64,000 nt of DNA from Candidatus Bathyarchaeia archaeon (lineage in GTDB: Archaea > Thermoproteota > Bathyarchaeia > Bathyarchaeales > Bathycorpusculaceae): contig CP166960.1 in assembly GCA_041447175.1 (NCBI GenBank), forward strand, positions 953,507-1,017,506, read 5' to 3'. Below the pieces are notes generated by a model. That model worked only from the letters and a program-made list of their open reading frames with translations, ran no database searches and was not told where the DNA came from. Every line of letters starts with the position of its first letter. Within the stretch, counting starts at the first letter, position 1. Shown here one piece after another: positions 55,478 to 59,910 of this stretch. The position numbers and the translations under genes are program-made.

Positions 55478-55565
55478 GCAGGGGTCGCCGAGCATGGTCA
55501 AAGGCGTAGGCTTCAGGAGCCTATCCTGTAGAGGTTCATGGGTTCAAATCCCATCCCCTGCACCA
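55478..55565 (+). tRNA. tRNA-Leu(CAG), CCA encoded
   Basis: A class II tRNA: acceptor stem GCAGGGG (55478-55484) pairs with CCCCTGC (55555-55561). The D arm is CGCC...GGCG, the anticodon stem TAGGC/GCCTA encloses TTCAGGA with anticodon CAG, a long variable arm (CCT-GTAG-AGG) follows, and the T arm is ATGGG-TTCAAAT-CCCAT. Discriminator A73 and an encoded CCA (55563-55565) follow. No intron is present. A TATA-like TATTTATT near 55433 is a plausible promoter. Confidence 0.95.
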
Positions 55566-55749
55566 CACCTTAAATCCCCTGCTGTTGGCACTGCCTTTTT
55601 GAAGCAGCGTTAAATTGAGTGAATTGGATGGGGTAAAATCTCCCAAAAAGTAGCCTCAATGTTTTTTTGTTGAACAATTAGTGGAACTATCGATTTCTGT
55701 AATATGCCCTTTTATGCGATTCAAAAGCAACGTTTTGAACGATGCCCCA

Positions 55750-56133
55750 ATGGACAAAAATGAACAAACAACCAAAGAACAAATAAAAAACAAATTCATT
55801 GGAAGGCTGATAACCGAATTCTTAGATATTATAATCATGGCGCACTTCGAAAACGAGCCCTTCTGCGGATACAAAATTCTCCAGCACGTGCAACACTTAT
55901 TTGGGGTTCGTTTAAGTTCAGGCACCGTCTACTCCACAATCTACGCCATGGAAAGAAAAAACCTCCTGTCAGGCGTAGGATTAAACGGCAAAAGAATCTA
56001 CCGAGTCACTAACAAGGGCAAACTCTATTTATCAGCTGCCTTTTCACCAGAAGAAACCGCAGAGTTTATGGCAAAAGCAATGAACACACCATTAAGGGAT
56101 AAAAAGGGTCAAACTAATGAAATGCCAAACTGA
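55750..56133 (+). CDS. PadR-family transcriptional regulator
   Basis: About 127 aa with a PadR winged helix: FLDIIIMAHFENEPFCGYKIL, RLSSGTVYSTIYAMERKNLL as recognition helix, and NGKRIYRVTNKGKLYL as the wing. The C-terminal helix (AAFSPEETAEFMAKAMN) probably dimerises. I favour ATG 55750; ATG 55714 and GTG 55681 give longer N termini without a ribosome site. It lies on the plus strand after tRNA-Leu and about 300 bases before the converging cassette genes, with no obvious target next to it. Confidence 0.87.
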   Translation: MDKNEQTTKEQIKNKFIGRLITEFLDIIIMAHFENEPFCGYKILQHVQHLFGVRLSSGTVYSTIYAMERKNLLSGVGLNGKRIYRVTNKGKLYLSAAFSPEETAEFMAKAMNTPLRDKKGQTNEMPN

Positions 56134-56437: not shown

Positions 56438-56941
56438 TTAAGCAGCATCAGCCTTTACTGTTTTATCTAAAGGTTCCTTTTGTGTCTCGGCGCCCTTTGG
56501 CTGTTTGGTTTTTCTTCTCAGCTGCAAGCCCTCCGCCAAAAACAGAACCGTCGCGATGATATTGGTTACCGCTAGATATATTAGGTCTATGCTGGGTAAT
56601 AATCCGTGTAGGAAGAACTGGCTTGCAATTATCACGAGTTCGGTGCCTACCACTCCTGAAAAAAAGAGGGAGTAGCACATCAGTCGGGGCACGAGGTTTC
56701 TGCCAATCCACAAGTGCCCACTGATGTTGACTTTTTCTTTGACTAGGTATTCGCCGTATCCGTTTTTTTGCAGTAGTCCGCATGCTTCGAGTTTTTGCAG
56801 GTGCCAGTATGCTACGCTGGGGCTGCTTAGATTTGCGCCGCGCATAACTTCGCGTGGACCTACGGGTTTGCCCTCTTTGACCGCGTAGCTGTAGACGTTG
56901 AGGGTTTTGCCTTCCAATGATTCAGCGTCTGCGTTGGTCAT
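56438..56941 (-). CDS. Membrane-anchored winged-helix regulator, cassette 1
   Basis: A 167-aa protein. Residues 10-72 are a winged helix: VGPREVMRGANLSSPSVAYWHLQKLEACGLLQ has the helix-turn-helix, with Trp46 and His47 on the recognition helix, and NGYGEYLVKEK is the wing. A linker (75-87) leads into two membrane helices (about 86-110 and 115-140) and a basic/polar tail. DNA-binding would be on the cytoplasmic face. It starts at ATG 56941, five bases after the secreted-protein gene. The counterpart at 58089-58589 is a clear paralogue. I infer a one-component sensor of the membrane or envelope. Confidence 0.85.
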   Translation of the reverse strand: MTNADAESLEGKTLNVYSYAVKEGKPVGPREVMRGANLSSPSVAYWHLQKLEACGLLQKNGYGEYLVKEKVNISGHLWIGRNLVPRLMCYSLFFSGVVGTELVIIASQFFLHGLLPSIDLIYLAVTNIIATVLFLAEGLQLRRKTKQPKGAETQKEPLDKTVKADAA

Positions 56942-56946
56942 GAAGT

Positions 56947-57951
56947 TTAGCTCCTTGGCTGTATGGTTACTTCGCCGAACTGGTCTATTACAAACACTTT
57001 GTCTGCCATAGAAACGTTGTCGTATACGTAGCCGTCGCTGGTTTGCTCCCACTGAATCTGAAGTGTATTTTCTGCAATTGCATGGGTGTCTCTGGGTATT
57101 GAGCCGTTTATTTGGCTGCTAATTGCTGCATGGAAAAGTATGTCGCCTGTTAGCTGCTCAATTTTCTCTGAGTCATAGTATCTGTTTGGAATTTCGCGGT
57201 CATCAAAGATAGCGATTAGCCTTGACTCGTTAGGTGCCCAAAGTTGATTAAAGCCGTTGGGTGTTCCGCTGATACCGGTGATGCCGTGCGTCTCAATGCC
57301 TGACGGGAAGTCACTGCCTAGCATTTTTTGGTGTTGGAAGTAAGTTTCGGGTCCAGCAAATGTTGGGGGCCAATCACTTGGGCGTTCTACATCGATTCTG
57401 CCTGTGACATCAACCCATGTGCCGTTCATGTTCATGCGTGTGAAGTCCAATTCGCCGTTGGCGTATTCTTCGTAGACCATGACGCCTTCCATCCAGTAGC
57501 CTGTGCTGTTCTCTTCAAAAGGTCCATTCATGCTAAATTCTTGGTTGTTGGGTACCCACGTGATGTTGTAGTATTTGCCATCTACCCAAGCGTACTCAGC
57601 ATCCCATCCGCGCCCGCTCCTTCCAGTGTCTTGTGCAGGTTTGTTGTAGTTCGGGGTTTTTGCATCGCATGCTACTCCGCTAATTTTTGCTGTTTCATTG
57701 CTGTTGTTGGTTATGTTCAGGACGGTAAAGTATGAGATACCCGTGAACCTATCAGGCTTTGTACTGGGGTTTATGCTAAAGTTGGCGTATAGCAGGTCAA
57801 TGCTGATGTCTGCGTAGGGTCCTTTGGGTGGTTCGGGGTATTGTCTGATGGTTGAGAAGTCGATTTTTGACATTAGAAGTGGCGAAGCAGCAGTAACTCC
57901 CAGCGATATCGAAAGAATCGCGGCGATTAATAGTTTTGTTCCATATTGCAT
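56947..57951 (-). CDS. Secreted protein, cassette 1
   Basis: A 334-aa exported protein starting at ATG 57951 with MQYGTKLLIAAILSISLGV, a signal or anchor helix, then SPLLMSKIDFS. The long outer domain is beta-rich (DISIDLLYANFSI, SYFTVLNITNNSNETAKI, TWVDVTGRIDVERPSDW) with several N-glycosylation sequons and no C-terminal anchor. It is paralogous to the protein at 58595-59833; shared points are the start, the WxxNxxE pattern and TWVDVTxR. It lies five bases before the membrane regulator, so the two are coupled. Function unknown; I propose it is the extracytoplasmic partner of that regulator. Confidence 0.85.
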   Translation of the reverse strand: MQYGTKLLIAAILSISLGVTAASPLLMSKIDFSTIRQYPEPPKGPYADISIDLLYANFSINPSTKPDRFTGISYFTVLNITNNSNETAKISGVACDAKTPNYNKPAQDTGRSGRGWDAEYAWVDGKYYNITWVPNNQEFSMNGPFEENSTGYWMEGVMVYEEYANGELDFTRMNMNGTWVDVTGRIDVERPSDWPPTFAGPETYFQHQKMLGSDFPSGIETHGITGISGTPNGFNQLWAPNESRLIAIFDDREIPNRYYDSEKIEQLTGDILFHAAISSQINGSIPRDTHAIAENTLQIQWEQTSDGYVYDNVSMADKVFVIDQFGEVTIQPRS

Positions 57952-57985
57952 TTTGTTTTTCCTCGTTTACTCTTTTGGGTAAGTG

Positions 57986-57998
57986 CCTATTAGCTCTG
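57986..57998 (-). promoter_or_regulatory. Core promoter element of cassette 1
   Basis: On the minus strand CAGAGCTAATAGG lies about 25 bases before the expected start near 57965, so it is the likely BRE/TATA region. Exactly the same 13 bases occur at 59867-59879 before cassette 2, at the same distance from the operator. Confidence 0.6.
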
Positions 57999-58002
57999 GT
58001 CA

Positions 58003-58030
58003 TAGAACGCCCACGTTCTACCTGTAGAAC
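58003..58030. promoter_or_regulatory. Three-half-site operator of cassette 1 (AGAAC type)
   Basis: On the plus strand AGAAC (58004), GTTCT (58015) and AGAAC (58026) recur every 11 bases in alternating direction. They form two overlapping perfect inverted repeats: TAGAACG/CGTTCTA (4-base spacer) and GTTCTAC/GTAGAAC (2-base spacer). It lies just upstream of the core promoter, a position that suits an activator. Confidence 0.8.
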
Positions 58031-58088
58031 AACAATCAAACAAGAAACAACACAACCGACACGGGTAAAGAAAAAGGAGGAAAAGAGG

Positions 58089-58589
58089 TTAAGCACTTTG
58101 ATTTTGATTAGGTTTCTCGTTGATGGAGTCATCTTTCAAAGCAGTGCCAGGCCTGTTTTTGCGGAACAGAAGTAGCCCTTCGGTTAAAAAGAGCCCTGCA
58201 GAGATGGCGGTGACTGGCACCAAATACAAAATGGCTAAGCTGGGTGCTCTTGCTTGTATGAAAAACTGAATCAGCAAAATTGCAAGTTCAACGCCGAGCA
58301 TGCCAAAGAAAAAGAGGGAGTAGCACATCAGTCGGGGCACGAGGTTTCTGCCAATCCACAAGTGCCCACTAATGCTTGCTTTCTCTTGCACTATGTATGC
58401 TCCGTACACGTTTTTCTTAACTAAGCCAAGCGATTCAAGCTTTTGCAGTTGCCGGTATGCGGTGCTTGGGCTGCTGAGGTTAGCACCCCGCATAACTTCA
58501 CGTGGACCCACAGGTTTGCCTTCTTTAACCACGTAGGCATAAACGCAAAGAGTGGTGCCTTCGAGGACTTCAGCATCCAAGTTTGTCAT
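58089..58589 (-). CDS. Membrane-anchored winged-helix regulator, cassette 2
   Basis: A 166-aa paralogue of the protein at 56438-56941, with the same layout: winged helix (residues 10-72; VGPREVMRGANLSSPSTAYR with Arg46 and Gln47 in the recognition helix), two membrane helices (about 86-110 and 118-142) and a polar tail. The juxtamembrane region and first helix are identical between the two, and a 62-base DNA tract there (58309-58370) matches 56661-56722 without a mismatch. It starts at ATG 58589, five bases after its secreted partner. I infer it controls cassette 2. Confidence 0.85.
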   Translation of the reverse strand: MTNLDAEVLEGTTLCVYAYVVKEGKPVGPREVMRGANLSSPSTAYRQLQKLESLGLVKKNVYGAYIVQEKASISGHLWIGRNLVPRLMCYSLFFFGMLGVELAILLIQFFIQARAPSLAILYLVPVTAISAGLFLTEGLLLFRKNRPGTALKDDSINEKPNQNQSA

Positions 58590-58594
58590 CTTGT

Positions 58595-59833
58595 TTAGCT
58601 CCGATCTGCAATGAAAACTTCTATGTCCCATGGGTCAGGCTGGAAAATCTGGTTCGCCTCAAGAACACCATTGTACACAAAGCCCTCGCCTTCTGGTTGC
58701 ACTGGTATCTGCTGGATTACGTCGATAACTTTTGTGGTATCTGTCATGGTTCCGTTTACAACGCTGGCAGCGTCGGTCAAGCGCGATTGCCCCATAACGT
58801 GAACTGCTATGTTTCCGCTTTGAAGATACTGCACAACATCCGCGCTGTAGGCAAATACTGTACCGTTAAACATTATCAGCCTAGACTCATTCGGTGCCCA
58901 AGTGTTATTGAATTTGTCAGGTCCCGTGTAGACGGTGATGTGTTCCGAGTAGGGCGATGAGAGGTCAACGGTTATGTTTGCACCTGAAGGGTACATGGGT
59001 TTCACTGTTACCGTTGTTATGGTTGTGGTTACGGTTGTGCCGTTGCCAAAGTCTTCTGTTGAGCTGCGTGTGTTTGTTTCTGTGCTGTTCCAGTCTTCAG
59101 GCAAAGGTGCTTGAAACAGGTAACGACTGTTGGCGATAGCATGTCCACCTGAAGTCATAGTGCTAAACGGGTCTCCACGGTCAGGCACTTCAACCCTATC
59201 AGTGACATCCACCCAAGTTCCGTTGATGTACATGTACGTGTAAGCTAAAGTACCGTTGACGTATGTATCCGAGGTTTCAACACCTTCACGCCAGTAACCC
59301 TCATCAGGAAAAGCCGCATCACTTTCTATTCCCCACGGAACAGACGATGGATACTCGGGGTATCCAGGTATGTCGGGGTGCGGCGCAGTTGGAACATTTC
59401 CAGAGTTGGGTATCCAGGTAACGTTGACTATTTCCCCGTCAAGGATTGCATATCTGTGGCTGCCTCCAAAGCTTGAGACACCGTTTTCAACGAAGAAACC
59501 ACCGCCTCGGGTGAAGCTTTCCGCAGATGAGGCTTCTAAGAAGTCCACTTTGACATATTCGTCCGAGAGGTTGGTGACGTTGACGACCATGTTGTAGTTG
59601 ACGGTTGTGGGGTTTTCGTTGTGGTTCCAAGAGGGCACGGTCAGGGCGGGGTCGGCAGATTGGACGCTGAAGCTGGCGTAGACAACGTTTGCGGTGACTT
59701 CGGGTTTGGGTCCTTCAGGCAAGTAGGGGTAGGGCGCTAAGTTAAGTTCAGAGATCAGCAGTGGAGAGGCACATGCGATTCCTATGGACATCGAAAGGAT
59801 TGCTGCGAAGAGTAGTTTTATTCCGTATTTCAT
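58595..59833 (-). CDS. Secreted protein, cassette 2
   Basis: A 412-aa exported protein starting at ATG 59833 (MKYGIKLLFAAILSMSIGI), supported by GAGGAAA upstream; longer readings to 60037 run through the operator. After the signal helix come SPLLISELNLAPYPYLPEGPKP and a beta-rich domain with many NxT/S sequons. It is longer than its cassette 1 paralogue by about 78 residues, partly through a Thr-rich insert (TVTTTITTVTVKP). Both end with a similar YNGV/YDNV...FVIxD-like stretch. It is coupled to the membrane regulator by five bases. Function unknown. Confidence 0.85.
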   Translation of the reverse strand: MKYGIKLLFAAILSMSIGIACASPLLISELNLAPYPYLPEGPKPEVTANVVYASFSVQSADPALTVPSWNHNENPTTVNYNMVVNVTNLSDEYVKVDFLEASSAESFTRGGGFFVENGVSSFGGSHRYAILDGEIVNVTWIPNSGNVPTAPHPDIPGYPEYPSSVPWGIESDAAFPDEGYWREGVETSDTYVNGTLAYTYMYINGTWVDVTDRVEVPDRGDPFSTMTSGGHAIANSRYLFQAPLPEDWNSTETNTRSSTEDFGNGTTVTTTITTVTVKPMYPSGANITVDLSSPYSEHITVYTGPDKFNNTWAPNESRLIMFNGTVFAYSADVVQYLQSGNIAVHVMGQSRLTDAASVVNGTMTDTTKVIDVIQQIPVQPEGEGFVYNGVLEANQIFQPDPWDIEVFIADRS

Positions 59834-59884
59834 GTGAGTTTCCTCAAGTCCTCTTGTGTGAATGTACCTATTAGCTCTGCTTAC

Positions 59885-59910
59885 GGAACAAACCCGTTCC
59901 AGACTGGAAC
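59885..59910. promoter_or_regulatory. Three-half-site operator of cassette 2 (GGAAC type)
   Basis: GGAAC (59885), GTTCC (59896) and GGAAC (59906) alternate with spacings of 11 and 10 bases, giving GTTCCAG-A-CTGGAAC as a near-perfect palindrome. The geometry matches the cassette 1 operator but every half-site has G in place of A at its first base. It lies five bases upstream of the shared 13-bp promoter element at 59867-59879. Confidence 0.8.

Follow-up and report, generated by a model that had tools for sequence, protein, structure and literature searches.

Except in a few model organisms, little is known of the ways in which archaea sense their environment. Here we describe two tandem gene units at positions 56438-59910 of a 64,000-nucleotide (nt) stretch of a Candidatus Bathyarchaeia genome (the window), each of which encodes an exported beta protein and a membrane-anchored winged-helix regulator. 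The closest described arrangements are the bacterial co-component systems, such as VtrA/VtrC and ToxR/ToxS, in which a membrane-tethered helix-turn-helix (HTH) regulator is joined by an exported partner (Kinch et al. 2022, PMC9214523). More generally, proteins that carry a DNA-binding domain and membrane segments in one chain have been surveyed as transmembrane transcription regulators (TTRs) (Demey et al. 2023, PMC10269533). Among archaea, ArnR and ArnR1 of Sulfolobus acidocaldarius have an HTH and two C-terminal membrane segments and control the archaellum and pili (PMC6396743), and the activators EarA and TrmBL1/Tgr act upstream of the transcription factor B recognition element (BRE) (PMC5512572, PMC4158304).

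The unit studied here, which we call a cassette, resembles the co-component systems in that two adjacent, often overlapping genes encode a membrane-tethered HTH regulator and a membrane-anchored exported partner, which evolves fast and lacks family matches; the adjacency is seen in both the position and the spacing of the genes. Unlike the co-component systems, in which the regulator gene comes first, the cassette is archaeal and begins with the exported gene. Its regulator has two membrane helices in place of an outside domain of its own and a winged helix of another type than the CadC/OmpR-type HTH, its partner is modelled as a beta sandwich with insertions, and the cassette is tied to a surface-protein regulon through a promoter-spaced operator. 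Since it departs from the co-component systems in the order of its genes, in the type of its HTH and in the lack of an outside domain on its regulator, we regard the cassette as a system that, by analogy, would work like them and yet is not one of their members. With its DNA-binding domain and at least one membrane segment in one chain, the regulator falls within the broad TTR class, to which the partner, the operator and the regulon are additional. It shares with ArnR/ArnR1 an archaeal origin, an HTH with two C-terminal membrane segments and a link to surface control, but in ArnR a HAMP and a sensor domain separate the HTH from the membrane, whereas the cassette winged helix runs straight into a membrane hairpin; moreover, no exported partner gene has been described for ArnR. 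As with EarA and TrmBL1/Tgr, repeated sites lie directly upstream of the BRE/TATA-like element. To our knowledge, the latter regulators are soluble and have no exported partner. A literature search found no Bathyarchaeia regulatory system of this kind. An initial sequence-only reading knew of no named system with this composition; the general principle has its bacterial precedent in the co-component systems (PMC9214523), which that reading did not mention. What appears to be new is the predicted tripartite operator at a fixed distance from a BRE/TATA-like element. We favor, with moderate confidence, the reading that each unit is an autoregulated archaeal co-component cassette with a signal-anchored partner, embedded in a surface-protein regulon.

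Pairing of the two genes across genomes

Both units lie on the minus strand, each with the exported gene followed by the regulator gene, as the sequence-only reading had described. The two regulators (P0001 and P0002, 66% identity over 146 amino acids (aa), E 1e-71) and the two exported proteins (P0003 and P0004, 30% identity over 422 columns, E 1e-39) are paralogous pairs, again as proposed. The five-base gap claimed for the unit holds for both copies in the window, where the ribosome-binding GGAG of cassette A sits inside the 3′ end of the exported gene; among relatives, however, the gap varies from −4 to about 60 nt, with two cases at about 92 nt, and some members show translational overlap. 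The exported gene is first in every cassette.

The window belongs to a genome assembled as a single contig of 2.73 Mb, which holds eight members of the regulator family. Several genera hold 2 to 10, and most genomes of the order hold one or a few. The named contigs with the closest relatives carry Bathyarchaeia or close labels (Bathyarchaeum, Bathycorpusculum, 'Nitrososphaerota' bins), and the pairing recurs at named Bathyarchaeia loci. Gene neighborhoods were taken for most of the closer regulator homologues, and the distant ones were sampled. The tree of 88 regulators contains a clade of 37 (support 99/90) that includes the window pair and has an exported gene directly upstream in all 37 cases. 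This gene is intact in 32; in the other five (L013, L057, L066, L087, L101), either the exported gene is frameshifted or truncated, or the regulator start is mis-called. The neighboring clades are solitary or have other kinds of gene upstream, and the more basal regulators L060 and L092, outside the clade, also have an exported partner. Viewed from the other side, a profile of the exported family matches 19 of the 101 genomes, and by coordinates each match adjoins a regulator, except for one degenerate copy. Because one clade is always paired and the exported matches adjoin regulators, it looks as if an exported gene had joined a solitary membrane regulator once, so that the cassette has a single origin. 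The expectation that the two genes always co-occur is thus borne out in both directions for the clade of the window pair and fails for the sister clades, which make up about half of the proteins examined and consist of regulator homologues without a secreted partner; as a general rule for the regulator family, constant pairing is ruled out.

Two further copies were seen in the window's genome. The degenerate orphan (C1:2375852-2376586, L011/L019) has two stops and no adjoining regulator. A third, type II cassette (C1:2453000-2454540, L003/L013) has an exported gene spread over three frames behind an intact operator, and is either a pseudogene or the product of long-read assembly errors.

The regulator, the exported protein and its N-terminal helix

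In the AlphaFold2 model of P0001 (predicted local distance difference test score (pLDDT) 78.8), helices 12-23, 29-35 and 41-53 and wing strands 57-59 and 65-67 are followed by two long helices (75-112 and 118-145) with some five residues between them and by a disordered tail. The wing thus ends at residue 67 and the membrane helix starts at 75, in agreement with the claim that the regulator has no soluble sensor domain of its own. Structure comparison showed the N-terminal part to resemble winged-helix proteins of many families (Z about 10). No Pfam or NCBIfam family covers the regulator: in 27 members, Pfam gave weak matches to LexA, IclR, TrmB and similar winged helices and none to Trans_reg_C at E 0.01. 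P0002 scored 18.0 bits against TrmB (PF01978), under the gathering cut-off of 25.6, and P0001 did not match that family. A Foldseek search of the PDB returned no match below E 0.001 for the P0001 or the P0003 model.

The model of P0003 (pLDDT 75.7) consists of one N-terminal helix (4-22) and an all-beta ectodomain. The sequon richness noted at the outset exceeds the expectation from shuffling in both exported proteins (10 against 3.2 and 12 against 4.7) and in the pooled relatives (314 against 176). The suggestion that the family might prove to be an ordinary enzyme or S-layer protein found no support, since Pfam matched none of 21 members and NCBIfam neither P0003 nor P0004. Sequence searches of PDB chains gave nothing useful. 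In a VIA-align comparison of the P0003 model, the top row was the TMEM106B luminal domain (Z 9.5, 138 residues, 3.5 Å), followed by LEA14, ApaG, IPI and transglutaminase beta domains (Z 7-8). These matches may reflect a common sandwich fold, and we draw no function from them; the absence of a lipocalin, the barrel type to which the co-component partners belong, among the rows listed excludes nothing.

Among the invariant columns of the exported-family alignment are M1, G18, A22 and P24, and these four lie in or beside the N-terminal helix. The first 30 residues are on average 41% identical and the remainder 22% (51 pairs), whereas in a control set of five NosD-like exported paralogues from the same genome the signal is 38% and the mature part 42% identical. 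Because the N-terminal residues are better conserved than the ectodomain, unlike those of the control, we infer that the helix is not cleaved off as a signal peptide but is kept as a signal anchor and has a specific role. The simplest such role would be packing against the hairpin of the regulator.

A predicted tripartite operator and surface-protein regulon

When the promoters of the exported genes were aligned, a tripartite site emerged, TGTTCY-N-RGAACA-N-TGTTCY, with a purine-rich stretch and then CTAAWA or TTATWA on its 3′ side. The strict pattern lies upstream of 35 of the 41 labelled cassettes and of 9 of the 54 other regulators. These nine include two or more fragments of cassettes and the solitary L015 and L104. 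Composition shuffles gave 14 in 1900. Half-sites 2 and 3 are in most cases separated by 5-6 or by 16-17 nt, and the two spacings differ by one turn of the helix. Within the TATA-like element, the A lies 17 nt from the G of half-site 3 in 75 of 75 cassette-type promoters and in 18 of 18 regulon promoters listed, the latter count leaving out sites judged to be outside a promoter. Archaeal activators typically bind directly upstream of the BRE (PMC5512572, PMC4158304). Because the operator occupies a fixed position directly upstream of the BRE/TATA-like element, its geometry is that of an activator site, and the regulator probably acts as an activator rather than a repressor.

At its fifth position the half-site has T, C or G, and in 59 of 71 cassettes this base is the same in all three half-sites. 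It varies with residues 45-47 of the recognition helix: YRQ, HRQ and YRN go with C, YWH, YRH and HRH mostly with T, and HWH mostly with G. A Q or N at residue 47 accompanies a C in 15 of 17 cases, against 3 of 58 for other residues (Fisher 4e-11, phylogeny ignored). On a tree built without residues 45-47, two T-to-C changes share branches with H-to-Q changes (4 and 6 changes, 148 branches). In the window, cassette A combines YRQ with GTTCC and cassette B combines YWH with GTTCT. Because both the triads and the half-sites differ, the tandem paralogues are probably insulated from each other.

The operator is not confined to the cassettes. Genome-wide counts come from pattern searches with a fixed spacing window, which miss the 16-17 nt variants; in the window's genome they gave 26 sites, and 7 in a reversed control. 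About 20 of them lie near gene starts, when the three cassettes, the solitary regulator L015 and one apparent chance site are set aside. A hydrophobic N-terminus is encoded by 16 of the 20 downstream genes and by 28 of 129 background genes (Fisher 7e-7), and two of the four failures are one borderline and one frameshifted exported gene. Among the products are NosD/beta-helix, kelch, PQQ-propeller and PKD proteins, and several of these carry a membrane anchor at the C terminus. Of the 19 sites with a promoter element that were sampled in other genomes, 18 precede exported or polytopic membrane proteins. The excess of operators is confined to the 26 of 101 genomes that hold the regulator subfamily (210 sites, control 74); the remaining 75 have 108 sites and 168 in the control (Mann-Whitney p 6e-7 across the 101 genomes). 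Judged from the genes downstream, the operator-linked set is a predicted surface-protein regulon that is undescribed. Because genomes without the subfamily show no excess, the near-universal solitary relatives of the L007/L008 type probably do not use this operator. Half-sites are non-uniform in 9 of the 20 regulon operators, which may be read jointly by several of the eight regulators.

Three observations concern variants of the site or its setting. A four-half-site operator, GTTC..GAAC..GTTC..GAAC, precedes a polytopic membrane protein of about 6-7 helices in four genomes; the protein downstream of the copy in the window's genome has no Pfam match. A version GTTCA..TGAAC..GTTC recurs in six genomes (G099, G065, G084, G034, G019, G044), partly without the cassette clade, and a different branch of the regulator family may recognize it. 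In a cassette-free genome (L250/L107, G060:C28), a solitary regulator of a sister clade and a NosD-like surface gene are divergently oriented on either side of the operator; this placement suggests that regulation of surface genes is the ancestral role of the family.

The features are collected in Table 1; the stretch studied stops at the first base of operator A. An Rfam scan near the cassettes found only a transfer RNA gene (55478-55562, plus strand), which lies just beyond them together with a gene at 55681-56133 (plus strand) for what is possibly a PadR-like regulator. No link of either to the cassettes was seen.

Table 1. Coordinates of the two cassettes in the window, and operator loci recorded elsewhere.
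Feature	Coordinates	Strand	Remarks
Cassette A exported beta protein P0004, 412 aa	58595..59833	-	putative signal anchor; no Pfam/NCBIfam match
Cassette A N-terminal hydrophobic helix	59756..59833	-	putative signal anchor; invariant G18, A22, P24
Cassette A intergenic gap, 5 nt	58590..58594	-	TAA-ACAAG-ATG
Cassette A membrane-anchored winged-helix regulator P0002, 166 aa	58089..58589	-	
P0002 recognition helix, residues 41-53	58431..58469	-	triad YRQ, paired with GTTCC operator; transferred from P0001 model
P0002 two membrane helices, residues 75-145	58155..58367	-	position transferred from P0001 model
Operator A	59885..59910	-	GTTCCAGTCTGGAACGGGTTTGTTCC; three GTTCC half-sites
BRE/TATA-like element A	59868..59882	-	AAGCAGAGCTAATAG; central A 17 nt from third half-site
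Cassette B exported beta protein P0003, 334 aa	56947..57951	-	putative signal anchor
Cassette B N-terminal hydrophobic helix	57874..57951	-	putative signal anchor; model helix 4-22
Cassette B intergenic gap, 5 nt	56942..56946	-	TAA-ACTTC-ATG
Cassette B membrane-anchored winged-helix regulator P0001, 167 aa	56438..56941	-	
P0001 recognition helix, residues 41-53	56783..56821	-	triad YWH, paired with GTTCT operator; AlphaFold2 model
P0001 two membrane helices, residues 75-145	56507..56719	-	AlphaFold2 model
Operator B	58004..58030	-	GTTCTACAGGTAGAACGTGGGCGTTCT; three GTTCT half-sites
BRE/TATA-like element B	57987..58001	-	GACCAGAGCTAATAG
Operator sites of the window's genome			L210-L235
Operator sites of other genomes			L236-L255
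Four-half-site operator, window's genome	C1:461283-461317		L215
Four-half-site operator, other loci			L242, L247, L253

Sensing partner, feedback or output

In the favored reading, the regulator would be a winged-helix DNA-binding domain tethered through a two-helix membrane hairpin that leaves next to nothing exposed outside, and the upstream gene would encode a beta ectodomain that is glycosylated and of type II (signal-anchored), its conserved N-terminal helix packing against that hairpin within the membrane. The regulator would bind the three GTTCY half-sites upstream of the BRE/TATA-like element and activate its own operon, and the same operator class would drive the wider set of surface-protein genes. 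Variants of half-site and recognition helix would separate paralogous cassettes within one cell, and the system would tune the cell surface to whatever the ectodomain or the membrane meets. Of these elements, the computation establishes the pairing, the operator with its promoter geometry and its tie to the regulator family, and the exported character of the regulon; direct binding, activation, the membrane complex and sensing are inferred. A partnership of the two proteins is supported by the obligate two-way pairing, the translational overlap in some members, the conserved N-terminal helix and the co-divergence of the genes, whose distances correlate (r=0.72, with 0 of 2000 permutations as high), as would be expected of any linked genes that duplicate together. 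The sequence-only reading had left the secreted protein as either the source of the signal or the regulated output. At the level of sequence, a role as output is supported, given that the promoter of the exported gene has an operator whose variable base tracks the recognition helix; because of the obligate pairing and the conserved anchor, we favor for it a further role in sensing or feedback.

The main rival holds that the exported protein is output only: the hairpin itself would sense the membrane (lipid state, crowding or translocation load), and the exported protein would merely be one of the controlled surface proteins, co-transcribed for convenience. The wider regulon, made up of exported proteins without a paired regulator, is consistent with this, as are the solitary relatives that carry the same operator in their own promoters and the NosD-like surface gene divergent from a solitary regulator in the cassette-free genome. 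We nevertheless consider it rather unlikely, since it accounts neither for the occurrence of the exported family solely with this clade nor for the twofold higher conservation of its N-terminal helix over the ectodomain when the other exported genes of the regulon are free-standing. Alternatively, the exported protein might be an anti-activator, free membrane copies of which bind the hairpin and shut off transcription, so that the surface protein is held at a set level without an outside signal. The autoregulatory operator, the obligate pairing and the conserved anchor helix fit such feedback equally well, and translational overlap would suit a stoichiometric pair; it does not account for an ectodomain that diverges much faster than the anchor, nor, if the surface proteins do not each have a set point of their own, for the presence of several cassettes with different operators within a genome, and we think this scenario improbable. 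Finally, one could envision that the three-arm repeat acts as RNA and is not a DNA site to which a protein binds, because arms 1 and 2, and arms 2 and 3, are complementary and could form mutually exclusive hairpins. The repeat, however, lies upstream of the BRE/TATA-like element at a fixed spacing, and hence probably outside the transcript, its spacing shifts by a helical turn and its variable base tracks the recognition helix, which makes this explanation very unlikely.

Several points weigh against the co-component reading. The solitary regulators L015, in the window's genome, and L104 have the operator in their own promoters, 92 and 113 nt upstream, respectively, so that regulation is possible without an exported partner. 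These two also depart from the specificity rule, having YRH with GTTCC, as do L198 (HWH with GTTCT) and L082 (YYN with GTTCT). The association of residue 47 with the half-site was tested with phylogeny ignored, and just two independent co-changes were found. Retention of the signal anchor is deduced from conservation alone, the correlation of distances is of the kind that linkage produces, and the structure models are of moderate confidence.

A broader proposal is more tentative, and we hold it somewhat less probable than not: the surface repertoire of Bathyarchaeia may be run by membrane-tethered winged-helix activators with a readable helix-to-half-site code, some of which have acquired dedicated, signal-anchored ectodomains and would thus form parallel, insulated channels from the outside to DNA with no kinase and no soluble sensor domain. 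For the Bathyarchaeia, which are abundant and mostly uncultured, the analysis supplies a defined regulator family together with its partner protein and regulon, an operator predicted for it and a rule of specificity, each of which can be tested in vitro. It would extend the co-component idea from enteric bacteria to archaea, with different parts in a different arrangement, and what emerges looks like a mode of cell-surface control in archaea that has not been described.

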